From contig NZ_CP028920.1 in the NCBI RefSeq assembly GCF_003060865.1, positions 134,761 through 198,760 of the forward strand: a stretch of 64,000 nt of DNA, given 5' to 3'. Below the pieces are notes generated by a model that worked only from the letters and a program-made list of their open reading frames with translations, did not search any database and was not told the DNA's origin. Shown in pieces: positions 8,247-39,943 of this stretch. The stretch's first letter is position 1; the number at the start of each line of letters is the position of its first letter. This DNA comes from Gemmobacter aquarius. GTDB taxonomy: Bacteria > Pseudomonadota > Alphaproteobacteria > Rhodobacterales > Rhodobacteraceae. Made by a program: the position numbers and the translations under genes.

Positions 8247-9314
8247 ATGAAGTTATATAACCCTGTTAATACTGATAATCCTGAAGAAACCATCGTCGAT
8301 TCCGAGAGGGTTGGACAGGCGTCCGAAGACGACCTGTGGTTCCTGCCAGGTCCGATGGAAGAGGAACCGGATTATCTGCCTCCAGGCCCAATGACTGAGC
8401 CTAGTGAAACCTCAGTACTTGCGGCTTGGGCTCGGGCCGAAGCGGGTTGTGCGGCCCGCCTCGCACAGGTGGCCGGAAGACTGGGCGCGCTTGACGACCG
8501 TCTGCGACGCGGCCCATTGGGTTGGCGGCACAGATTGGCTCTGATCGAGGCTGCAGAGCTGAGCTGGTTCGTTGGCGATCGAGTCAGCCCTGAACGCCTT
8601 GCACTCTGGATCGCGCTTCGGCTGTCTGGCGCGCAGGAAGACTCAGGGGCGCTGTCTCGTGTTGGATGGGCCGTTCGGCGTCTGACTGGAGGGCCTGGCC
8701 CCGAAGCTGGGCTTGCCGATTTTCTCGACCGCCGGGACCCTGAGAATATAGCTGATGACGCCGATCGTTTCGCTGAACGTGCTGATGGCTGGCTCGCCTT
8801 GATGGAAGCCAGCCGACATTTTCACCCTATCACTCGGGCTTGTCTGGGCTTCAACCTTTGGAGCCTGGCAGGTCTCGGTCAGAATGGCGACCGGATGGAA
8901 GCTGCGGTCACGGCAGGACGTGTTGCTGCAGCCGAAGGGAAGGGTGCAATTTTCGCACCGCTGGCACTGGGTGGGGCAGGGGGGCTTCGTGCCGGCGGAC
9001 CTCCGGCAGAGCGGTTGACCCGATGGCTGGACGGGATGAACAACGCATGCCTCGCAGCGATGCGGCACCTCGACGAACTCGAATTATGGTCCACCCAAGC
9101 GGAAACTGTCATGTCAGTGTTGTCTGGCCGTACTCCTCCGGCTTTGCGCGCTGTATTGACCGAATGGCCCTTGGTCTCTGCACCGATGGTCGAGACTGTG
9201 ATCGGCGCCAGCCGCGCGGCTGTCCAGCGAAACCTGGCTTGGATGGAGGCGCGTGGGCTAATCTGCGAAATGACCGGGCAGGGGCGTTATCGGATGTGGC
9301 GCGCGGCGATCTGA
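8247..9314 (+). CDS. RHE_PE00001-type (DUF1612 plus C-terminal helix-turn-helix) protein
   Basis: A 355-aa protein divergent from the recombinase. It has a proline-rich acidic N-terminus, a helical middle (about 55-280) and a C-terminal winged-helix-like segment (APMVETVIGASRAAVQRNL, then MEARGLICEMTGQGRYRMW). This layout fits the plasmid-borne family first seen on Rhizobium etli plasmids. Members are thought to be DNA-binding regulators or filamentation-related proteins, but none has a firm function known to me. The assignment is from memory of family sequence and is moderately sure. Confidence 0.65.
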   Translation: MKLYNPVNTDNPEETIVDSERVGQASEDDLWFLPGPMEEEPDYLPPGPMTEPSETSVLAAWARAEAGCAARLAQVAGRLGALDDRLRRGPLGWRHRLALIEAAELSWFVGDRVSPERLALWIALRLSGAQEDSGALSRVGWAVRRLTGGPGPEAGLADFLDRRDPENIADDADRFAERADGWLALMEASRHFHPITRACLGFNLWSLAGLGQNGDRMEAAVTAGRVAAAEGKGAIFAPLALGGAGGLRAGGPPAERLTRWLDGMNNACLAAMRHLDELELWSTQAETVMSVLSGRTPPALRAVLTEWPLVSAPMVETVIGASRAAVQRNLAWMEARGLICEMTGQGRYRMWRAAI

Positions 9315-9400
9315 AAGCTTTGGATCACGATTTTCGCCACTTTGCATTTGGAATTGACCCGGCCGACACATCCAAGGCTGCCCGGCGACGGAAGTATGCA

Positions 9401-10165
9401 TCATCCGAACACTAACCCGCCATCGACGATCAGGTTCTGCCCCGTGACTGCGCGCGCCCAGGGCGAGGCGAAGAACAGCACGGCGTCGGCCAGATCCTCG
9501 GGCGTCGTCACCCGGCCCAGAGGGGTCTGGGCGGCGATGATGTCGAACACCGCTTCGGGCGTGGCGGCGCTGGCGTCGGTGGTGCGCAACAGGCCTCCCG
9601 ACACCATGTTCACCGTGATGCCCAGCGGCCCCAGTTCCTTGGCCGCCGTGCGGGTCAGCGCCAGAAGCGCACCCTTGGCGGCGGTGTAGTCGTGATAGGG
9701 CACGACCGGGTTCTGCATCAGGTTGGTGCCGATGGTGATGATCCGGCCAAAGCCTTGCGCTGCACAATGCGCCCGCATCGCGGCCAGACAGTTCAGCGCG
9801 CCACCCACCGCCGTTTCGGCCTGCCGCGCGATATCGGCCCATTGCAGCCTGTCAAGATGCGCCCGCGCATCGCCGTTGAAGGCGAAATCAGCCAGCGCAT
9901 TGTGGACCAGCACATCCGGGGCCCCCAGACGCTCAGTGATCTGATCCACCATCGCCGCAACCTGCGCGGGGTCTGTCACATCGGCGCGAAACGCGGCGGC
10001 GCGCGGGCCAAGCTCGGCGGCCAAGGTCTCGGCTGCGGTCTGGCTGTTGCGATAGTTGATGGCCACCCTTGCGCCTTCGCGGTGAAAGGCGCGGGCGATG
10101 GCGGCACCAAGGCCACGGCCACCGCCGGTGACAAGGACGGTCAGGTCAGACAGGGGACGGGTCAT
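9401..10165 (-). CDS. SDR-family oxidoreductase at the end of the thiamine operon
   Basis: A 254-aa short-chain dehydrogenase from the ATG at 10165, which overlaps the thiD stop by four bases. It has the Rossmann motif TGGGRGLGAA (about 14-23), the NALA variant of the NNAG motif, and the YxxxK active site (YTAAK). The catalytic Ser usually found 13 residues before Tyr is Thr here. Translational coupling to thiD behind a TPP riboswitch suggests a role in thiamine precursor salvage, for example on a pyrimidine or thiazole breakdown product. The substrate is unknown. Confidence 0.85.
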   Translation of the reverse strand: MTRPLSDLTVLVTGGGRGLGAAIARAFHREGARVAINYRNSQTAAETLAAELGPRAAAFRADVTDPAQVAAMVDQITERLGAPDVLVHNALADFAFNGDARAHLDRLQWADIARQAETAVGGALNCLAAMRAHCAAQGFGRIITIGTNLMQNPVVPYHDYTAAKGALLALTRTAAKELGPLGITVNMVSGGLLRTTDASAATPEAVFDIIAAQTPLGRVTTPEDLADAVLFFASPWARAVTGQNLIVDGGLVFG

Positions 10166-13700: not shown

Positions 13701-14822
13701 CTAACGGGCATTCACCATCGGCCGTGTCTTCAGCACTTCCAGGCTGTCCAGCAAAGCCTCGCGCGGCAGATCGCGGCCGATGATGACGACGCGGCTCTTA
13801 CGATCCTCGCCCGACCAGCGGGCAAGGCGGATGGGTGGGTCGATGATGTGCTGGACGCCGTGGATGACAAACGGCGTGTCGAAGCCGTCGGCCCAGATCA
13901 CCGCCTTCAGGCGCAAGATGTCGGGGCCGCGGGCGGCGATCAAGGTTTCCATCCAGATGTCCAGCATGATCGGATGGATCGGGTCATCAAAGACCATCGA
14001 CACCGAAGAGATGCGGTCGTCATGGCGGGCCGCCGGGGCAATGGCGGCCAACAGGCTTGACCCCGGGGCCGGGGCCAACCCGAATAGGCCATGGGTTGGG
14101 CCGGTTGCAAAGGGGGCCAGCGATTTTGCCAATGGCGGAAGCGGCAAGGATGAAAGCGCATAGGCCGGGGCGTTCACCCAGGCTTCGGCTTCCGGCAACG
14201 CACCGTTCATGTCGGGGGCCCCATGGCCGAAAAGCTCGGTCAAAGGAACCGCGCCGCGCGTAGCGGTCACGATGCGCGCCCCGGGGGCAAGGGCCGCAAG
14301 CCGGGCGCGGAACCGCTCGGCCTGCGATGGTGTCACGAGGTCGGTCTTGGACAGAACCAGCACATCGGCCATGGCGACCTGCTGAACACTTTCGAACCCG
14401 GCATCCAGCGTGGCAGGGCCATGCGCGGCATCGCAGACTGTGACCACCCCATCCATCCGCAGCGTCGCCCCCAGACCGGGCGTCACGATCAGCGTGTGCA
14501 GGATCGGCGCGGGATCGGCGAGGCCAGTGGTCTCGATCACGATCCGGTCGAACGCCAGTTTCCCGGCGCTGCGCTTTTCGAACAGGCTTTCCAGCGCCTG
14601 CACCAGATCGCCGCGCACCGTGCAGCACATACAGCCGGAGGAGAGAAGCACCGTTTCTTCGGTCGTCTCGACGATCAGGTCATGGTCAAGACCCACATCG
14701 CCGAACTCGTTGACGACAACGGCGATGCGGCCTGCCGAGGCATCGCGCAGGAGCGCATTGAGAAGCGTGGTCTTTCCGGCGCCAAGATAGCCGGTGATCA
14801 GGGTCAGGGGAATTCGGGACAT
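13701..14822 (-). CDS. COG0523 GTPase (zinc-responsive metallochaperone type)
   Basis: A 373-aa G3E-family GTPase. P-loop GYLGAGKT (11-18), the metal-binding CxCC motif GCMCC (C64, C66, C67), NKxD as SKTD, and a C-terminal CobW_C domain. It lies divergent from hisI across a Zur box, so it should be made under zinc starvation. COG0523 proteins under Zur are thought to deliver scarce zinc to essential enzymes. It is distinct in sequence from the CobW at 38909 and from the two other COG0523 proteins of this region. Confidence 0.9.
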   Translation of the reverse strand: MSRIPLTLITGYLGAGKTTLLNALLRDASAGRIAVVVNEFGDVGLDHDLIVETTEETVLLSSGCMCCTVRGDLVQALESLFEKRSAGKLAFDRIVIETTGLADPAPILHTLIVTPGLGATLRMDGVVTVCDAAHGPATLDAGFESVQQVAMADVLVLSKTDLVTPSQAERFRARLAALAPGARIVTATRGAVPLTELFGHGAPDMNGALPEAEAWVNAPAYALSSLPLPPLAKSLAPFATGPTHGLFGLAPAPGSSLLAAIAPAARHDDRISSVSMVFDDPIHPIMLDIWMETLIAARGPDILRLKAVIWADGFDTPFVIHGVQHIIDPPIRLARWSGEDRKSRVVIIGRDLPREALLDSLEVLKTRPMVNAR

Positions 14823-14838: not shown

Positions 14839-14851
14839 GTTATACTATAAC
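14839..14851. promoter_or_regulatory. Zur box between COG0523 gene and hisI paralogue
   Basis: GTTATACTATAAC is a perfect 13-bp palindrome of the form reported for Zur sites. It sits 17 bases from the minus-strand GTPase start and 36 bases from the plus-strand hisI start, so one site can repress both directions. An identical 13-mer occurs at 22959. Confidence 0.85.
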
Positions 14852-14887: not shown

Positions 14888-15358
14888 ATGACCGTTACTT
14901 TCGCCCCCCGCCCGTCTGTCCTCGATGTCGAAGAAGGCCTGGCCCTCGCCCCGCGCTTTCCGGCGGATGGCCTCATGCCCTGCGTGACGACCGATGCCGC
15001 GGACGGCACCGTGCTGATGCTGGGCTGGATGAACGAACAGGCGTTGCGGCTGACCATCGAGACGTGCGAGGCGCATTACTTCAGCCGCACAAGGCAAGCG
15101 GTCTGGCACAAGGGCGCGACCTCGGGCCTGACTCAGACTGTGGTCAGGATGCGGATCGACGACGATCAGGATGCAATGTGGCTGGAGGTTACCGTCGCAG
15201 GCTCTGGCGCGTCGTGCCATGTCGGCTATCGGTCCTGCTTCTACCGTGAGGTGCCTATCGGCCCCGCTGCCGGTGGTCCGCTGCGGTTCACCGAGACCGA
15301 GCGCCGGTTTGACCCCGTCGCGGTCTATGGCGATGCGCCGAACCCGACGATCCTGTGA
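14888..15358 (+). CDS. HisI-type phosphoribosyl-AMP cyclohydrolase paralogue lacking one zinc cysteine
   Basis: A 156-aa protein matching HisI: MLGWMNEQAL, HYFSRTR, WHKGATSG, and CHVGYRSCFYR. HisI opens the AMP ring in histidine synthesis and uses Zn and Mg. The family motif DCDxDA reads DDDQDA here (91-96), so the first zinc-ligand Cys is Asp92; the other two (C110, C117) and the metal-binding Asp residues remain. It is first in a Zur-controlled operon. Zur-regulated HisI paralogues are known as backups for zinc shortage. I infer an enzyme that needs less zinc or another metal. Activity is not shown by sequence. Confidence 0.88.
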   Translation: MTVTFAPRPSVLDVEEGLALAPRFPADGLMPCVTTDAADGTVLMLGWMNEQALRLTIETCEAHYFSRTRQAVWHKGATSGLTQTVVRMRIDDDQDAMWLEVTVAGSGASCHVGYRSCFYREVPIGPAAGGPLRFTETERRFDPVAVYGDAPNPTIL

Positions 15359-15365
15359 GGCCGGC

Positions 15366-15752
15366 ATGGGCGCGGCTTTAACCCCGAATGAGATCGAAGT
15401 GCTGGCCCTCTTGCGCGGGGCGAATGGCCCGATGACGGCCTATCAACTTCTTGGCCGGATGCAGCGCAAAGGTGGTGCAGTGGCCCCTCCCACAGTCTAT
15501 CGCGCCCTGAAAGGGCTGGAAGAGGCCGGTGTCGTGCAACGGATCGAAACGCTGCGCGCTTGGGCCGTGGTCACCTCGCCCGTGCCGGGGGTGGTGGCGA
15601 TCTGCGACGATTGCGGGTCCGTGCGCAGCGTCGAGGCGCCAAGCCTGTTTGAAAGCCTCCATCAGCGCCTCGCCGCTGAGGGTTTTGCCGAGGCGCGCCA
15701 GACCATCGAGGTGCATGGCCGTTGCGGCGATTGCACCGGGGGCCAGGCATGA
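15366..15752 (+). CDS. zur: Fur-family zinc regulator (Zur)
   Basis: A 128-aa Fur-family protein with a winged helix (APPTVYRALKGLEEAGVVQRI, 40-60) and two CxxC pairs (C80/C83 and C120/C123) for structural zinc. It lies between hisI and the znu transport genes and two Zur boxes, which identifies it as Zur rather than Fur. It is shorter at the N-terminus than most Fur proteins. The start at 15366 follows hisI by seven bases. It probably represses its own operon when zinc is plentiful. Confidence 0.9.
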   Translation: MGAALTPNEIEVLALLRGANGPMTAYQLLGRMQRKGGAVAPPTVYRALKGLEEAGVVQRIETLRAWAVVTSPVPGVVAICDDCGSVRSVEAPSLFESLHQRLAAEGFAEARQTIEVHGRCGDCTGGQA

Positions 15753-15847
15753 AGGACCTCCTCCTCTCCGGCGTGGTCCTGCGGCTGACGCTGGCCCTTG
15801 GTCTATCCGCCACCCTGTGGGTCGGGCTCTGGCTGGTGGTGGGCTGA
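15749..15847 (+). CDS. 32-aa single-span membrane microprotein
   Basis: A tiny frame that starts with ATG overlapping the zur stop as ATGA and stops one base before the znuC ATG. It encodes MKDLLLSGVVLRLTLA followed by a second hydrophobic stretch ending in LWLVVG, together one membrane span. Its position is fully consistent with translation in the zur-znuCB operon. Small membrane proteins often tune ABC transporters; that role is only a guess. Confidence 0.55.
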   Translation: MKDLLLSGVVLRLTLALGLSATLWVGLWLVVG

Positions 15848-15848
15848 C

Positions 15849-16590
15849 ATGGCATTGCGCATCCGTGATCTGACACTGGGCTATGACCGGCATCCTGCGG
15901 TGCATCACCTTGACCTTGACCTGGCCCCGGGCAGCCTGACTGCCGTGGTTGGACCGAATGGCGCGGGGAAATCCACGCTGCTGAAGGGCCTAACCGGCGA
16001 GCTTGTTCCCCTGGAAGGCCGGATCGACCGGGGGGTGGCGCGGCTGGCCTACCCTGCCGCAACTCTCCGAGGTGGACCGCAGCTTTCCCATCGCGGTCGG
16101 GGCCTTTGTTGCCATGGGGCTGTGGCATCGGGTCGGGGCCTTTGGTCGGGTCGGGGCCAAGGACGCCGCGCGGGTGGCCGAGGCGCTGGCGGCCGTGGGC
16201 CTGACTGGCTTTGACCAACGCCCGATCTCGGCCTTGTCGGGCGGTCAGGTGCAGCGGGTGATGTTCGCGCGGCTGCTGTTACAGGATGCCGACCTGATCC
16301 TTCTCGACGAACCCTTCACCGCGCTCGACACCAAGACCGCCGCTGACCTTCTGGCAGTCGTGCAGCGCTGGCATGGCGAAGGGCGCACCGTGCTTGCCGT
16401 TCTGCATGACATCGAAGCGGTGCGCAGGCATTTCCCCGAAACCCTGCTGCTGGCGCGCGAAAAGGTCGCGCATGGGGCGACGGATAAGGTCCTGACTGCC
16501 GAGAACCTGTTCCGCGCTCGCCAGATGTCTGAGGCTTTCGACGACAGTGCCAATGTCTGCGTCCGCCCTGCCACACGGGGTGCCGCATGA
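15849..16590 (+). pseudogene. znuC: Zinc ABC transporter ATPase ZnuC, broken by a +1 frameshift
   Basis: The first part (from 15849) holds the Walker A motif GPNGAGKST and reads to GVARLAY; the remainder, in the next frame, continues LPQLSEVDRSFPI with the signature LSGGQ, Walker B LILLDEPF and switch His to 16590. The two join perfectly if one C of the CCC at 16052-16054 is removed. As given, ZnuC would lose its signature motif and transport would fail. All motifs are intact on both sides, so a sequencing error or very recent mutation is likely. It overlaps znuB by four bases. Confidence 0.9.
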
Positions 16591-17450
16591 GCTGGCTGGT
16601 CGATCCCTTCGCCGACTTCGCTTTCATGCAGAGGGCGCTCTTGGGCTGCCTTGCGATCTCGCTGGGGGCTACGCCGGTCGGCGTGTTCCTGCTTTTGCGC
16701 CGGATGAGCCTGACGGGCGATGCCATGGCCCATGCGATCCTGCCCGGGGCGGCGGTGGGCTATCTGGTGGCCGGGCTGAACCTGGGCGCGATGACCATCG
16801 GCGGGGTGGCGGCGGGGCTGATTGTGGCCGTCCTGACCGGGGCCGTCGCCCGCTTTACCGCCCTGCGCGAGGATGCCTCGCTTGCCGCCTTTTACTTGAT
16901 CTCGCTGGCCTTGGGCGTGCTTCTCGTCTCGCTGAAGGGGTCGAACGTCGACCTGATGCATGTGCTGTTCGGTACGGTCCTGGCGCTGGACGACGCGGCG
17001 CTGATGCTGCTGTGTGCGATCACCACCTTCACACTGGTCGCGCTGGCGCTGGTCTTTCGCCCTCTGGTGCTGGAATGCGCCGATCCGCGGTTCCTCGCCT
17101 CGGTCAGCCGGTGGAGCGGGCCGGTGCATTTCCTGTTCCTTGGCCTTGTCGTCCTGAACCTTGTTGCCGGGTTTCAGGCGCTTGGCACGCTGATGGCCGT
17201 GGGGATCATGATCCTGCCCGCCGCTGCCGCCCGGTTCTGGGCCAGTTCCATCGGCGGGATGCTGGCGGTCGCCGCCACGGTCGCGGCCGTCTCCTCCGTC
17301 GCCGGACTGTTGGCCTCTTACCACGCAGGGCTCCCGTCCGGCCCTGCGATCATCCTCGCCGCCGGAACCCTTTACCTCCTGTCGCTCGCGTTCGGTCCCT
17401 CGGGCAGCCTTGCCGCCCGCTATTGGCCACGCGCCCATCTTGAAGCCTGA
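16587..17450 (+). CDS. znuB: Zinc ABC transporter permease ZnuB
   Basis: A 287-aa ABC-3 family permease with about eight membrane segments and the family run DAMAHAILPG (about 45-54), plus GTLMAVGIMILPAAAAR in the second half. It pairs with ZnuC and ZnuA to import Zn2+ across the inner membrane. The start overlaps znuC as ATGA. Confidence 0.94.
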   Translation: MSWLVDPFADFAFMQRALLGCLAISLGATPVGVFLLLRRMSLTGDAMAHAILPGAAVGYLVAGLNLGAMTIGGVAAGLIVAVLTGAVARFTALREDASLAAFYLISLALGVLLVSLKGSNVDLMHVLFGTVLALDDAALMLLCAITTFTLVALALVFRPLVLECADPRFLASVSRWSGPVHFLFLGLVVLNLVAGFQALGTLMAVGIMILPAAAARFWASSIGGMLAVAATVAAVSSVAGLLASYHAGLPSGPAIILAAGTLYLLSLAFGPSGSLAARYWPRAHLEA

Positions 17451-17462
17451 AAGGATACTCCC

Positions 17463-18467
17463 ATGATTACTCGCCGTCTCCTGCTCGCCTCCGCCGCCGC
17501 ATTGGCCTTTGCCGCACCGGCATGGGCCGAAGACAAGCTGCGCGTCATCGCTACCTTTTCGATCCTCGGCGACATCGTTGCGAATGTCGGCGGTGACCGG
17601 GTCGAGGTGACCACGCTGGTCGGCCCGGACGGGGACGCGCATGTGTTCCAACCTGCGCCCGCCGATGCGCAGGCGGTGGCAGGCGCGCAGGTGATCGTCG
17701 CCAACGGGCTTGGGTTTGAAGGTTGGATGGACCGGCTGATCGAAGCCTCGGGCACAACGGCCGTCCTGATCAATGTGTCCGAAGGGGTAAGCCCGATCGC
17801 CTTTGGCGAAGAAGAGCACGCGGAAGAAGGTGGGCATGAAGGCCATGATCACGGTGACCACGCGGAAGGGGCTGGCCACGATGGGCACGATCACGCTGAC
17901 CATGGCGATGAGGCCGGTCATGAGGGGCATGACCATGGTGCCTTTGACCCCCACGCCTGGCAAAGCCCGGTCAATGTGGCGCTGTATGTCGGCAACATTG
18001 CCCAAGGCCTTACATCGGTCGACCCGGAGGGTGCAGCCGTCTATCAGGCCAACGCCGCCTCCTACATCGCGGAGCTTGATGCGCTTGATGCCGAAATCCG
18101 CACGGCCGTTGCGGCCCTGCCCGAGGATCGCCGCACGGTGGTCACGTCACACGACGCGTTCGGCTATCTTGCCGCCGGCTACGGCCTGACCTTCGTCGCG
18201 CCACAGGGGGTTTCCACAGAAGCGGAAGCATCCGCGCAAGATGTGGCGGCCCTGATTACCCAAATCCGTGAGCAGAGCATCGCTGCCGTCTTTGTCGAGA
18301 ACATCGCCGACCGCCGCCTGCTCGAGCAGATCGCCACCGAGACCGGCGCGGCCATCGGCGGCACGCTCTATTCCGACGCGCTGTCCGGTCCTGAAGGCCC
18401 CGCCGCCACCTACCTTGCCATGATGCGCCACAACCTGTCGCAGCTGACCGCTGCGCTGACCAACTGA
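17463..18467 (+). CDS. znuA: Zinc-binding periplasmic protein ZnuA
   Basis: A 334-aa cluster A-I (TroA-like) binding protein. It has a signal peptide (MITRRLLLASAAALAF, cleavage after AWA), metal ligand candidates H60 (GDAHVFQP) and H164 (DPHAW), and a long loop at about 119-158 packed with His, Asp and Glu in HxH repeats, the hallmark of zinc-specific ZnuA. The ATG is preceded by AAAGGA. It delivers Zn2+ to ZnuBC. Confidence 0.94.
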   Translation: MITRRLLLASAAALAFAAPAWAEDKLRVIATFSILGDIVANVGGDRVEVTTLVGPDGDAHVFQPAPADAQAVAGAQVIVANGLGFEGWMDRLIEASGTTAVLINVSEGVSPIAFGEEEHAEEGGHEGHDHGDHAEGAGHDGHDHADHGDEAGHEGHDHGAFDPHAWQSPVNVALYVGNIAQGLTSVDPEGAAVYQANAASYIAELDALDAEIRTAVAALPEDRRTVVTSHDAFGYLAAGYGLTFVAPQGVSTEAEASAQDVAALITQIREQSIAAVFVENIADRRLLEQIATETGAAIGGTLYSDALSGPEGPAATYLAMMRHNLSQLTAALTN

Positions 18468-18476
18468 GGTAACCCC

Positions 18477-19439
18477 ATGAACGCCCAAACCCCCGTGACC
18501 GTGCTGACCGGCTTTCTTGGCGCCGGGAAGACCACGCTTCTGAACCGCATCCTGACCGAGCCGCATGGCAAGAAATACGCCGTCATCATCAACGAATTCG
18601 GCGAAACCGGGATCGACAACGAACTGGTGATCGACGCCGACGAAGAGATCTTCGAGATGAACAACGGCTGCATCTGCTGCACCGTCAGGGGCGATCTGAT
18701 CCGCATTCTGGCCGGGCTGATGAAGCGCAAGGATTTCGATGGCATCCTGATCGAGACGACCGGCATGGCCGACCCCGCCCCGGTGGCGCAGACCTTCTAT
18801 GTCGATCAGGACGTGGCTGAGAAGACGCGGCTGGATGCCATCGTCACGGTGGTCGATGCGGTGAACCTGTCCACCCATCTGGACGAGGCACATGAAGCCG
18901 CTGAGCAGATCGCCTTTGCCGATATCATCCTCCTGAACAAGGTCGATTTGGTGGACGCTGCAGCGCTGGCCACCGCCGAGGCGCGGATCAAGGCGATCAA
19001 TCCCTACGCCAAGATCGTGAAGACCGAGAAATGTGGCGTCGCGCTGGATCAGGTGCTGGGGCTTGATGCCTTCAGCCTGGAACGCGTGCTGGAGATTGAG
19101 CCGGATTTCCTCGACGAAGACCACACGCATGAGCATGAGGAGGATATCACCTCGGTCTCCCTCTCCTCCGACACGCCGCTGGACGAGAAGAAGTTTCAGT
19201 CTTGGTTCGGCAAGCTTCTGCGCGAACGCGGGCAGGATATCCTGCGGTCGAAGGGCATTCTCGACTTTGCAGGGCAGGAGGAGCGGTTCGTCGTCCACGC
19301 CGTCCATATGCTGACCGATGGCTCACCGCTCGGGCCCTGGCCCGCGGGCAAGGCCCGATCCTCGAAACTGGTCTTCATCGGCCGCGATCTGGACAAGATG
19401 GGGCTGGCCGAGGGCTTTGCCGCCTGCAAGGCCGCCTGA
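18477..19439 (+). CDS. COG0523 GTPase in the znu operon
   Basis: A 320-aa G3E GTPase with P-loop GFLGAGKT (12-19), CxCC (C65, C67, C68), NKVD, and a His/Glu-rich stretch around 213-223 (DEDHTHEHEED) likely to bind zinc. It begins ten bases after znuA and overlaps the next gene by one base. Its place in a Zur-driven operon points to zinc allocation. It differs from the GTPases at 13701 and 21719. Confidence 0.92.
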   Translation: MNAQTPVTVLTGFLGAGKTTLLNRILTEPHGKKYAVIINEFGETGIDNELVIDADEEIFEMNNGCICCTVRGDLIRILAGLMKRKDFDGILIETTGMADPAPVAQTFYVDQDVAEKTRLDAIVTVVDAVNLSTHLDEAHEAAEQIAFADIILLNKVDLVDAAALATAEARIKAINPYAKIVKTEKCGVALDQVLGLDAFSLERVLEIEPDFLDEDHTHEHEEDITSVSLSSDTPLDEKKFQSWFGKLLRERGQDILRSKGILDFAGQEERFVVHAVHMLTDGSPLGPWPAGKARSSKLVFIGRDLDKMGLAEGFAACKAA

Positions 19440-20467
19440 TGCCGGTCTTGGAGCGGCACGATCCCCTGGCGCCCACCCGCATCGAAATGGGGGGGCGCAA
19501 GTATGATTTCGACGCGGTGCCCGTGGCCGTGGCGACGGTAGGTGATACCGCCTTCACCGCTTGGGGCGACGGGCATGTGCGCGTCTTCCGCCCCGGCGCG
19601 GAGCACGAGGCCTTGCCGGTCCACAAGGGCGCGATCCTGTCGATGGTGGCGGAATCGTCGGGGACGTTCCTGACCGGCGGCGACGATGGCCGCTTCTGCC
19701 GCGTCGGTCCTGAGGGCGTGACCGAGATTGCCAGCCACCCCCGCAAATGGGTGGACCATGTCGCGGCGGGCGCGGGCGGGGTCTTTGCCTGCTCGGTCGG
19801 GCGCGAGGTGTTTCTCTGGGACGGTTCCCGGCAGGAACGGCTTGCAGCTCCCTCAACCGTCGGCGGCCTCGCGTTTGACCGCAAAAGCGGGCGGTTGGCG
19901 GTCGCGCATTATGGTGGGGTCACAATCTGGGCGCGCGACAAACGTGGCTGGAAGCCCACCGCCCTGAAATGGGCGGGCAGCCACACCGCTGTCAGCTTCA
20001 GCCCCGATGACCGCTTCGTCATGACCCGAATGCAGGAAAACGCCCTGCACGGCTGGCGCTTGCGCGACAAGTCCGACCTGCGGATGTCGGGCTATCCGCA
20101 GAAGGTGAAGGGCTGGGCCTGGGCTGGTAAACTACCCTGGCTTGCGACCACCGGCGCGGATGAGGCGATCCTGTGGCCCTTTGACGGGGCGCAAGGCCCG
20201 ATGGGTCGCGGCCCGATGCAACTGGCCTGGGGCGGGCGCGGCTATGTGACCGCGATCTGTGCCTTGCCGGGGCATGAGGCGGTGCTGGCGGGCTATTCCT
20301 CGGGCGCGGTGATCTTTTCCGAAATCGACCAGATCGCCGAGCCTCGCGCGGTCAAACGCCCGACCGGCGCGCCGGTAACCCTGCTGGCCGTTACGCCGCT
20401 GACGGGCTGGCTGCTGGCGGCAGATGAACAGGGCGGCGTCCTCTGGGCACCTTTGGGGGCGGGCTGA
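19439..20467 (+). CDS. WD40-repeat-like protein of the zinc operon
   Basis: A 342-aa protein from the ATG at 19439, overlapping the previous stop. It has about six to seven repeats with patterns such as AFTAWGDGHVRVFRPG, FLTGGDDGRFCRVG and AVSFSPDDRFVMTR, typical of WD40 beta-propellers. No signal peptide. WD40 proteins of this kind occur beside COG0523 genes in alphaproteobacterial zinc operons, but I know of no function. A scaffold for the GTPase or its client is an inference from gene order. Confidence 0.8.
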   Translation: MPVLERHDPLAPTRIEMGGRKYDFDAVPVAVATVGDTAFTAWGDGHVRVFRPGAEHEALPVHKGAILSMVAESSGTFLTGGDDGRFCRVGPEGVTEIASHPRKWVDHVAAGAGGVFACSVGREVFLWDGSRQERLAAPSTVGGLAFDRKSGRLAVAHYGGVTIWARDKRGWKPTALKWAGSHTAVSFSPDDRFVMTRMQENALHGWRLRDKSDLRMSGYPQKVKGWAWAGKLPWLATTGADEAILWPFDGAQGPMGRGPMQLAWGGRGYVTAICALPGHEAVLAGYSSGAVIFSEIDQIAEPRAVKRPTGAPVTLLAVTPLTGWLLAADEQGGVLWAPLGAG

Positions 20468-20739
20468 TGCTGGGTCTCTTCAACCGTCGCCCCCGCCCGA
20501 ACGCCGAAGCCGTTGCCCGACTGAAGGAGTGGATCGCAAGCCTCATGTCTCTGGGCGACAAGGATCACATTGCCATTGCCGAGCTTGCCTGCCATGAACC
20601 CGGCTGTCCTGATCTGGAAACTGTGGTGACCGTCACCCTTGCCGACCGCCGCCGGTTTGTGCTGCGCTTTCCGTCTTCGGTCGCCGAAGTCACTGAAGCG
20701 CAAGTGCAATCGCTGAAATCGAGTGTCCCGGCCCCTTGA
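20467..20739 (+). CDS. Small conserved hypothetical in the zinc operon
   Basis: A 90-aa cytoplasmic protein whose start overlaps the WD40 stop. It begins with a basic MLGLFNRRPRP and has one conserved-looking motif, IAELACHEPGCPDLETVV (about 36-53), with C42 and C47 and a His. The motif could be a metal or redox site. It is translationally tied to the preceding and following genes. Function unknown. Confidence 0.75.
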   Translation: MLGLFNRRPRPNAEAVARLKEWIASLMSLGDKDHIAIAELACHEPGCPDLETVVTVTLADRRRFVLRFPSSVAEVTEAQVQSLKSSVPAP

Positions 20740-21065
20740 CCAGCTTTGTCCACCTGATCGAGGGCGACAGCGCCGAGGCCCGTCGAGCGCGCATTGCGGA
20801 CCTTGCCCGCTCTTCGCGCAATCCTCCCCTCATCCTGACTGAAACGGGCGATGTCCCCTGCACCCCGCTTGACTGGCTGATGGGCCCCGGCTGCACCTGC
20901 TGCTTGCCTGATAGCCATCCGCGCCAGCGCCTGTTGCGTGCGGCCTCGCAACCGCTGGCAATGCGCATCCTCATAGACGCAGGCCCGCCCGCCGTGGCCG
21001 ACCGGATCATCGCCATCCTGCGGGCGATGCCGGTGCGGTTGCACATCAGCATTCTGGGTACGTAG
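20736..21065 (+). CDS. CobW-like CxCC protein without a P-loop
   Basis: A 109-aa frame with a TTG start at 20736 that overlaps the previous stop as TTGA. Its order of segments resembles the N-terminal half of a COG0523 GTPase: a start strand (SFVHLIEG), PLILTETGD where CobW proteins have VIINEFGE, then GCTCCLP (C53, C55, C56) matching GCICCT, then MRILIDAGPP where they have ILIETTG. The Walker A residues are missing, replaced by EGDSAEARR. It may be a metal-binding, GTP-independent partner of the zinc GTPase. The similarity is my alignment by eye. Confidence 0.6.
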   Translation: MTSFVHLIEGDSAEARRARIADLARSSRNPPLILTETGDVPCTPLDWLMGPGCTCCLPDSHPRQRLLRAASQPLAMRILIDAGPPAVADRIIAILRAMPVRLHISILGT

Positions 21066-21722
21066 TCAGGAAAGCAGATGCGGCAAACCACAGTCGCAAT
21101 CTTCTTCGTCTTCGGGCAGATCAACCACCAGCAACAGCCGCGTCTCGCCCGTGCCTGCGATGGGGGGTGAGCGGTGGAGGAGCCCGCAATCCTCGCCCGG
21201 CCAAAGGGTGCCGCGAAAGATGGCTGCGTCAAAGGGGGCAAGGGCGTTGTGTCTTGGGACAATTCCGTCAGCTGCGGCGGGCCCGTATTCGGTGCCGTGT
21301 CCGCGATAGGCGCACAAGAGGCGCGCCGTGATCCGGTCACAGTGGAACTTGTGGCAGGCGTTGGTCTGGATGACATCAAGACGAACCTGCACCCGCGTCG
21401 TCGCCATGACCGCGCCGAAAACCCTGGCCAGCGCGGCAGCATCTGACGCGAGCGTCTGCCGCTCTTGCGACAGAACCAGACCGGTGACGTCGCAGGCGGC
21501 ATGGACTGCCGCCTCAACCTCGGTCACAGCCATTTGCGCTCGAAGACGCGGCAGCTTGTCGGGGGACACCCCCTCGATCCAGGCGGCAAAGCCCGGATCG
21601 CGCTGCCTGCGCCATAGCGCTGCGGCGACACCCGGTTCGTGGATGCGCCCAAGGCCCTCCGAGTGGTCAGAGGCGGCCACCCAGACAGCGCGCGGGCGGG
21701 GTTTGCGAAGCGCGCCCGTCAT
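21066..21722 (-). CDS. DUF1826 protein coupled to a zinc GTPase
   Basis: A 218-aa protein starting at 21722, with ATGA overlap to the COG0523 stop. Family features include [20 protein letters not shown] (about 135-155) and [15 protein letters not shown], with several Cys and His residues that could bind metal or form an oxygenase-like site. DUF1826 genes commonly follow Zur-controlled COG0523 genes, so it belongs to the zinc-starvation response. Molecular function is unknown. It converges with the 109-aa gene, the two stops being adjacent. Confidence 0.82.
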
Positions 21723-22933
21723 GCCGCCTTCGCATTCCACTGCGGGAAAGGATCGGTAAGCTTGCTCCACGCTTGCGGGGTAAAATCACAGGTGGTGACA
21801 AGGGCTGCGTTCAGCGCGGCACAAATCGCCTCTCGGTCAAGGTCCGCGCCGATAAAGACGATCTCTTGCCGCCGGTCGCCCCAGGGTTCGGCCCATTTCG
21901 AAGCAATTTCGGCCTGCGCCTCGGGGTGCTTGGGCAGCCGTTCCGCGGGGACGCTTGCCCACCAGCGCCCCAAGGGCGTGACTGATGACATGGCCCCGGC
22001 CAGGCTGAACTCGGCCACCCAATCGGGCCGCGTGGCGATCCAGAAATGCCCTTTGGCGCGGATCACGCCCGGCAGGGGACCGTTCAGCACGGCATGGATT
22101 TTGGCCGGATCAAAGGGTTCGCGAGCGTGGTAGACGAAAGAGGAGATCCCGTATTCCTCGGTTTCCGGCGTGTGGTTGGCGAAGCCATAAAGCTCCTTGG
22201 CCCACATCGGATGTTCGTGCGCGGTGTCGAAATCAAAGAGCCCTGTGTCGAAGATCTGATTCGGGTCCACGCGCGAATGGCTGGTTTCGATCACCTTTGC
22301 ATCAGGGTTCAGCGCCCGGATGATCTTGCGGGCGGCATCGACCTGGGCGGGCGTGGCGTCGCCCACTTTGTTCAGCACGACGACGTCGGCGAATTCCATT
22401 TGCTCGGTCAGCAGGTTCACCAGGCTGCGCGTATCCTGATCACCAAGGCTCTCGCCCCGGTCGGCCAGAAAGTCATGGCTGGAGAAATCGCGGAGCAGGT
22501 TCACGGCATCTACGACCGTGACCATGGTATCCAGCCGCGCCACATCTGACAGGCTAATGTCATTCTTATCGCGAAAATCAAAGGTCGCGGCGACGGGAAG
22601 CGGCTCGGCAATGCCTGTGCTTTCGATCAGCAGATAGTCGAACCGCCCCTCGGACGCCAGCCGCCGCACCTCAGTCAACAGGTCGTCGCGCAGAGTGCAG
22701 CAAATGCAACCATTGGTCATCTCGACCAATTTTTCCTCTGACCGGCTCAATTCTGCCCCTTCGCGGATGAGGTCGGCGTCGATGTTCACCTCGGACATGT
22801 CGTTGACGATCACCGCCACGCGGCGGCCGTCGCGGTTGTTCAGGACGTGGTTCAGAAGCGTGGTCTTCCCGGCCCCCAGAAAGCCGGACAGGACGGTGAC
22901 GGGAAGTCGGGGGTCGGTTTGGCTAAGGTGCAT
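21719..22933 (-). CDS. zigA: Zinc metallochaperone GTPase (ZigA/ZagA-like COG0523)
   Basis: A 404-aa G3E GTPase with P-loop GFLGAGKT (17-24), CxCC (C76, C78, C79) followed by TLRDDL, NKVG and a long CobW_C domain ending with the motif FIGADLDR. The NDMSEVNID segment and the length of about 400 aa mark the zinc-linked subgroup that includes ZigA of Acinetobacter and ZagA of Bacillus. It is preceded by a Zur box and followed by DUF1826. It probably transfers zinc to key enzymes during shortage. Confidence 0.9.
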
Positions 22934-22958
22934 GGCTCACTCTGTTATGTTATACTAT

Positions 22959-22971
22959 AACAAATCTACTT
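22959..22971. promoter_or_regulatory. Zur box upstream of the ZigA-like gene
   Basis: GTTATACTATAAC, identical to the site at 14839, lies 26 bases upstream of the minus-strand GTPase start. The flanks (TATG before, AAAT after) extend the partial symmetry. It could also affect the plus-strand B12 leader that begins about 90 bases away. Confidence 0.85.
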
Positions 22972-38908: not shown

Positions 38909-39943
38909 TTATGCCTCCAGCGCGGCGCGGATCGCGGCAGGGTCGATGTGGTGATGTTCCGCGATCACCACCAGCCGCGACTGGCGCGGCCCATCACCCC
39001 ACGGTCGGTCATATTGGTGGCGCACCCGCTCTCCGACCGCCTGGACCAGCAGACGCATCGGCTTGCCCGTCACAGCGACATGGCCCTTGACGCGCAGGAT
39101 GTGCTGATTGCGCGCCAGACGCTGGATGCGCAGGGCCAAATCGTCGGGGTCGGTGATTTCGGGCAGATCGATCACCACGCTGTCGAAATCCTCGTGCTCG
39201 TGGTCATCCTCGCCGTCGTGATGGCTGGGGCGCGCGGCGATGTCATCCTCGGCAGCGGCGTTAAGGCCCAGGATGAGGCGCGGGTCGATCCGGCCATCCG
39301 TCACAGGCAGGATCGCCACCTTGCGCGACATCTCGGCCTCGATCACGCCGCGGGCGGCGGTCAGCCCCACCTCGCCTGCCAGATCGGCCTTGGTCAGCAG
39401 GATCAAGTCGGCGCACAGGATCTGATCCTCGAACACCTCGGACAGGGGGGTTTCGTGGTCGATGCTGTCATCCGCAGCACGTTGCGCATCCACCGCCGCC
39501 ACATCGGGGGCGAAGCGCCCGGCTGCCACCGCCTCGGCATCGGCCAGGCCAATCACGCCGTCAACGGTGATCCTTGACCGGATCGCGGGCCAGTCGAACG
39601 CCTTGAGAAGCGGTTTCGGCAGTGCAAGGCCCGAGGTTTCGATGAGGATGTGATCAGGGCGCACCGGCATTGCCATCAGCGCCTCGATCGTGGGGATGAA
39701 ATCATCGGCCACGGTGCAGCAGATACAGCCATTGGCCAGCTCGACGATGTTTTCCACCGGGCAGTTTTCATCGGCGCAGGATTTCAGGATGTCGCCATCC
39801 ACCCCCACCGTGCCGAACTCGTTGACCAGGATCGCCAGACGCTTGCCTTGCGGGTTTTGCATCAGGTGGCGGATCAGCGTGGTCTTGCCTGCCCCCAGAA
39901 AGCCGGTGATGACGGTGACGGGGATTTTGGTCAGGTCGGTCAT
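38909..39943 (-). CDS. cobW: CobW GTPase of the B12 operon
   Basis: A 344-aa G3E GTPase with P-loop GFLGAGKT (14-21), CxCC (C73, C75, C76), TKAD and a His/Asp/Glu-rich linker (SHHDGEDDHEHED). It sits between cobN and DUF1636 under a B12 riboswitch, the classic CobW context, so it probably loads cobalt for CobN rather than zinc. Confidence 0.94.
   Translation of the reverse strand: MTDLTKIPVTVITGFLGAGKTTLIRHLMQNPQGKRLAILVNEFGTVGVDGDILKSCADENCPVENIVELANGCICCTVADDFIPTIEALMAMPVRPDHILIETSGLALPKPLLKAFDWPAIRSRITVDGVIGLADAEAVAAGRFAPDVAAVDAQRAADDSIDHETPLSEVFEDQILCADLILLTKADLAGEVGLTAARGVIEAEMSRKVAILPVTDGRIDPRLILGLNAAAEDDIAARPSHHDGEDDHEHEDFDSVVIDLPEITDPDDLALRIQRLARNQHILRVKGHVAVTGKPMRLLVQAVGERVRHQYDRPWGDGPRQSRLVVIAEHHHIDPAAIRAALEA

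Follow-up and report, generated by a model that had tools for sequence, protein, structure and literature searches.

A zinc locus ending in a CxCC protein gene

The DNA analysed here, a stretch of 64,000 nucleotides from Gemmobacter aquarius (hereafter the window), contains an operon in the order hisI-zur-znuCBA-COG0523-WD40-p90-p109, the last gene of which encodes a protein of 109 amino acids that we call p109 (Table 1). The TTG start of p109 overlaps the TGA stop of p90 as TTGA, in agreement with the first-pass annotation of this sequence, and the aligned start position is identical in all nine loci compared, with TTG in three and GTG in six. These nine loci are the window, L002-L008 and L094; L007 and G022/L095, whose contigs are of equal length (56,477), were counted once. 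p90 lies directly upstream of p109 in eight of them, and each time its stop overlaps the p109 start.

Table 1. Genes and candidate regulatory sites of the zinc locus, in window coordinates
Feature	Position	Strand	Basis or remark
cobW1, divergent COG0523 gene	13701..14822	-	PF02492, E 3.2e-48
Zur-like palindrome GTTATACTATAAC before hisI	14839..14851	.	compared with Paracoccus Zur sites (PMC5387054)
hisI-like phosphoribosyl-AMP cyclohydrolase (PRA-CH), first gene	14888..15358	+	PF01502, E 1.9e-28
Fur-family regulator, probably zur	15366..15752	+	PF01475, E 3.9e-9
znuC ATPase, two frames	15849..16590	+	ORFs 15798-16214 and 16003-16590; ABC_tran on second part
znuB (ABC-3 permease)	16587..17450	+	PF00950, E 3.4e-50
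znuA	17463..18467	+	PF01297, E 4.9e-94
cobW2, COG0523 GTPase, Walker A and GCICC	18477..19439	+	PF02492, E 7.6e-61
WD40-repeat protein	19439..20467	+	WD40/beta-propeller models at E 1e-4 and weaker, below curated cut-offs; syntenic
p90, 90-aa protein	20467..20739	+	102 homologues at E<=1e-3
p109, 109-aa CxCC protein	20736..21065	+	TTG start inside p90 stop
GCTCC codons, p109 residues 52-56	20889..20903	+	Cys conservation in 49 family rows
DUF1826 gene, convergent with p109	21066..21770	-	PF08856, E 2.4e-47
ZigA-like COG0523 gene	21719..22933	-	NF038288, 587 bits, just under cut-off of 600
Zur-like palindrome GTTATACTATAAC upstream of ZigA-like gene	22949..22961	.	

The order COG0523-WD40-p90-p109 is found in seven of the nine loci, although p109 is broken off in one of these, L008. 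L004 begins at p90, where its contig ends. In L005 the order is znuA, a Pyr_redox-type gene and p109, without COG0523-WD40-p90; neither p90 nor the WD40 protein had a match within this 20-kb locus, and the L005 genome, a metagenome-assembled genome (MAG), holds other COG0523 genes, none of them close to the COG0523 protein of the operon (44% at best).

Several details of the neighbouring genes were noted. The N-terminal part of znuC in the window lies in the frame of 15849 and the C-terminal part in the frame of 16003, reflecting either a real lesion or an assembly error; the znuC match positions fit a single frame in L003, L006 and L007. The DUF1826 gene was matched in two frames at L007 11045-11739 / L095 4296-4990. 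A fourth COG0523 gene of the window (38909-39943) adjoins an open reading frame of 1078 amino acids, which we take to be cobN-like. An equal-scoring second site (G000:C3:13770-14342), 160 kb off on the same contig, suggests a duplicated region.

In all eight loci that include this region, a Zur-like palindrome with at most one mismatch precedes hisI or, in L005, znuA, and the remaining palindromes of this quality in these loci lie only before the ZigA-like gene. Genome-wide, the bare pattern is not commoner than its reversed control (9 versus 10 per strand), and as such the evidence lies in the conserved position of the palindrome rather than in its count. The palindrome equals a Paracoccus znuA site at 10 of 13 positions. 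In Paracoccus denitrificans, Zur sites such as GTTACGATATAACAT are located before znuA, promoter DNA was studied together with Zur in EMSA, and a Zur-controlled COG0523 gene sits with two hypothetical genes (PMC5387054). The genome of the window contains two further Zur-like palindromes, at G000:C1:179955 and G000:C1:180011 (0 and 1 mismatch, respectively), 56 bases apart. The gene-neighbourhood survey proposed in the first-pass annotation placed p109 homologues at zinc loci, and the sequence evidence argues strongly for a link between p109 and a zinc starvation operon.

Occurrence, coding status and conservation of p109

p109 has a patchy distribution. A scan of 84,980 species genomes, limited by pattern, returned seven p109 loci. 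They are recorded under Tabrizicola, Rhodobacter and 'Alphaproteobacteria bacterium', with a single locus, similar in appearance to the rest, under Exiguobacterium profundum. At the family level, matches to p109 were present in four of 295 genomes, three of them convincing, including the window's own; the match left out of this count, in G131, spans 37 residues and contains one stop. At the genus level p109 was found in one of 19 genomes. With three convincing matches among 295 genomes of the family and one among 19 of the genus, p109 is dispensable. Its upstream partners are more widespread, with p90 in 13 and the WD40 protein in 15 of the 295 family genomes (the latter at E<=1e-20), and the WD40/p90 unit also occurs without p109. 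Of ten WD40 loci without p109 (L096-L105, from nine genomes), nine have the COG0523 gene and seven have p90; none of the ten has a same-strand CxCC open reading frame of at least 70 amino acids with its start in the next 1.3 kb downstream. L098 has a COG0523 gene on the opposite strand.

Searched against 5.8 billion proteins, p109 had 33 homologues at E<=1e-3 from 61 candidates, and a profile search gave 54 proteins at E<=1 from 7,995 scored candidates; P0001, the cluster of the window protein itself, is counted in both lists. Among distantly related p109 genes the third codon position is the most variable. Compared with six diverged copies, the window gene has a dN/dS of 0.22-0.26 in five cases (that of L008 spanning 66 codons), the value for L005 being 0.42. 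Evidence of strong constraint is missing from the close pairs, which with few changes gave 0.24 (window-L002), 0.55 (L002-L003) and 0.92 (window-L003), the L004-L008 pair giving 3.4 over 66 codons, again with few changes. The number of homologues, the excess of third-position changes and the low dN/dS in distant pairs together identify p109 as a coding gene; it is a genuine gene under long-term purifying selection. Its tail, from residues 102-109 onwards, is variable: the window version stops at residue 109 beside the DUF1826 stop, and the L002 version has 161 amino acids.

The tail of the operon is a recombination mosaic. Between the window and L002, the stretch 20677-20976, which contains p109 DNA, is 100% identical, while the flanking 100-base blocks are 77-91% identical on the left and 80-81% on the right. 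The same stretch is only 57-65% identical between the window and L007, whereas the COG0523 and WD40 genes of these two loci are 83-98% identical. In L008 the p109 gene departs suddenly from the other copies near codon 63-66, as the result of either a rearrangement or a misassembly.

Conservation was assessed in 49 rows, comprising the window protein and 48 of the 54 database proteins, with tails cut at residue 112; six proteins, P0033 and P0050-P0054, were omitted as fragments or for their odd lengths. The cysteines are near-invariant (C53 49/49, C55 48/49 and C56 48/49), as are D81 (49/49), H61 and E9 (48/49 each) and H6 (48 rows and one gap), followed by E36 (45/49). CxCC is present in 47 rows and GCxCC in 44. 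No row contains a Walker A motif of the form GK[ST] or the guanine motif NKxD, tested as [NST]KxD. Both the GCTCC motif and the missing Walker A described in the first-pass annotation were therefore confirmed. A strand resembling ILIETTG was also described; the segment in this place reads ILIDAG (residues 78-83, with D81 in 49 and G83 in 47 of the 49 rows), with aspartate for glutamate and a spacing one residue shorter, and agrees only in part with the Walker B pattern hhhExxG. We note that GCxCC is not rare, being present in eight of the 404 open reading frames of the window, which we read as four COG0523 genes, p109 and three others.

Relationship to COG0523 and predicted fold

Pfam and NCBIfam scans of p109 and 34 family members returned no useful family, and PF02492 (cobW) was unmatched in all 34 members at a maximum E of 10, with filters dropping most matches above 0.1. 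The p109 family is unnamed and has no Pfam or NCBIfam entry. With the COG0523 proteins (CobW/ZigA/YjiA, PF02492 and PF07683) p109 has in common GCxCC and the zinc operon, and by hand count the acidic end of the next strand follows the last cysteine after 25 residues in p109 (C56-D81) as well as in its COG0523 neighbour (C68-E93). It differs from them in having no Walker A, NKxD or CobW_C match and in its length of 109 rather than 320-404 amino acids. NCBIfam NF047431, presumably the Rv0106-type family, is a model of 402 positions. A COG0523-like protein that has no canonical Walker A has been described: Rv0106, which carries CxSC instead of CxCC (PMC2770081), so that proteins of this type resemble p109 in the missing Walker A and differ from it in the motif.

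Sequence comparison with COG0523 returned the motif itself. Alignment of p109 with 31 COG0523 N-terminal halves by hhalign placed residues 46-81 on 55-90, in register, with P 3e-4. No full column shuffle of 300 reached this score, but 67 of 300 shuffles that kept the GCTCC block did, and masking of CxCC lowered the score from 29.6 to 13.6. These controls show the profile similarity to be that of the motif alone, and the hhalign match was rejected as proof of kinship. An anchored flank test, in which the 47 of 49 rows with CxCC were compared with 2,500 segments of long open reading frames, some perhaps spurious, gave family mean P values of 0.32 on the N side and 0.36 on the C side. In BLASTP of p109 against three zinc-locus COG0523 proteins, the top score (E 0.001) involved other parts, out of register, and weaker pieces in register around the motif had E 0.027 (twice) and E 0.066. 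As judged from these sequence comparisons, p109 is no more like COG0523 outside GCxCC than expected by chance. The segment order of a COG0523 N-terminal half, which had been taken as a sign of kinship, fits the predicted fold, but kinship does not follow from it.

Two AlphaFold models of p109 (pLDDT 84.8 and pTM 0.80; pLDDT 91.8 and pTM 0.85) have eight elements in common and predict a P-loop-NTPase-like alpha/beta half-domain, corresponding to the first half of such a domain. In structural comparison with the PDB, P-loop NTPases or designed P-loop folds made up most of the best 50 rows of each comparison. The matches are generic, with best Foldseek E values of 0.02 (PDB) and 0.05 (viral library). 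For the second and better model the top VIA row was the Sua5 C-domain rather than a G3E protein, and there was no G3E protein among its best 50 VIA rows. The models are compatible with a P-loop-like alpha/beta order, and the structural matches do not single out G3E proteins. T4 polynucleotide kinase and the Sua5 C-terminal domain are 3-12% identical to p109, and no common motif was seen. A profile search of solved-structure sequences gave six weak rows at E<=10, the best being a hydrogenase small subunit at E 0.52.

Possible roles of p109 under zinc starvation

The reading that we prefer, with a probability of roughly 0.4, is that p109 is a zinc-starvation protein, a GTP-independent zinc-holding accessory with a predicted P-loop-like fold and a permanent Cys/His/acidic site. 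A GTP-independent zinc carrier had been proposed in the first-pass annotation, and this proposal is consistent with the missing nucleotide motifs, the conserved CxCC, H61 and D81 and the zinc operon; the COG0523 kinship on which it was based is not supported beyond the motif. Zur would bind the operon palindrome, and a single transcript would probably cover all genes through p109. p109 should not bind GTP, since its predicted half P-loop-NTPase fold is without Walker A or NKxD. The zinc site would be formed by CxCC and H61 together with the acidic residues E9, E36 and D81 near the strand ends, at the sheet edge, and the order of elements and the conservation suggest that this site may take the place where a P-loop protein holds its nucleotide. 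The metal sites of CobW are created by guanine nucleotides (PMC7895991). Unlike CobW, p109 would keep its zinc permanently, and under starvation would exchange it, as donor or as recipient, with zinc proteins or COG0523 GTPases.

Rather doubtful, although deserving the most serious attention among the alternatives, is the possibility that p109 is an alpha/beta protein unrelated to the G3E GTPases, with an independently arisen CxCC that binds zinc for structural reasons or acts as a reactive thiol centre and is possibly served by a pyridine-nucleotide-disulphide-reductase-like enzyme of the locus. The chance-level flanks and the absence of G3E proteins from the top structural rows are as expected from such a protein. 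In L002, L003 and L007 the znuA and COG0523 genes are separated by a Pyr_redox_2-type gene, which in L005 stands between znuA and p109; however, the interval between the znuA and COG0523 genes is too short for it in the window, L006 and L008, and contains another open frame in L094. The [ML]xxGCxCC context and the position of the motif before an acidic-ended strand also recall COG0523 and speak against an unrelated protein. The open frame of L094, of 269 codons at about 8717-9695 on the reverse strand, is presumably DUF4198-like.

We consider it unlikely that p109 is a nucleotide-free metallochaperone whose truncated P-loop fold, perhaps the decayed remnant of half a COG0523 protein, carries a permanent Cys3/His/acidic zinc site instead of the GTP site. 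If this were true, zinc would be held without a GTP switch.

Still less probable is a role of p109 as a pseudo-GTPase regulator of zinc delivery, which it would tune by binding to the COG0523 protein, the WD40 protein or p90. The first-pass annotation had suggested a regulator competing with the GTPase, and the position of p109 at the end of the unit, the overlap of its start with the p90 stop in 8/8 p90-holding loci and the precedent of Rv0106 (PMC2770081) are compatible with such a role. The competitor idea is weakened by L005, which keeps p109 near znuA with none of the three proposed partners in the locus and no closely similar COG0523 protein elsewhere in its genome, and the ten p109-less WD40 loci, in which no same-strand CxCC frame of at least 70 amino acids starts in the 1.3 kb downstream, likewise do not suggest a dedicated regulator. 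The case of L005 favours an independent zinc role of p109 over a dedicated partnership with the neighbouring GTPase.

That p109 is a fast-evolving accessory of little function, kept for a time by operon-tail recombination, is improbable, since its patchy occurrence, mosaic tract, variable tail, broken L008 copy and dN/dS values of about 0.5 or higher for three close pairs are set against the low dN/dS in five of six diverged comparisons and the near-invariant Cys, His and Asp.

p109 has CxCC and a predicted P-loop-like fold but no nucleotide motifs, and it shares its starvation operon with a COG0523 GTPase. It would be a simple system for finding out what a carrier of this kind requires for binding zinc and passing it on, and catalogues of the zinc regulon gain an unannotated family. 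It has been reported that COG0523 subfamily 5 occurs with WD40 and znuABC genes and that some of its members lie downstream of Zur sites (Haas 2009, PMC2770081); DUF1826 is named in a figure legend of the same paper. The neighbourhood of p109 is likened to this arrangement by its WD40 neighbour, and the excerpted text of that paper names neither p90 nor p109 for the subfamily 5 loci. The earlier statement that no description of the arrangement was known therefore holds for p109, the family of which was not found in the literature searched, but not for the wider COG0523-WD40-znuABC neighbourhood. The p90 family is likewise unnamed and spread more widely than p109; p90 adjoins the WD40 gene in the loci whose upstream side was read, and one UniRef record labels it 'Nitrate reductase'.
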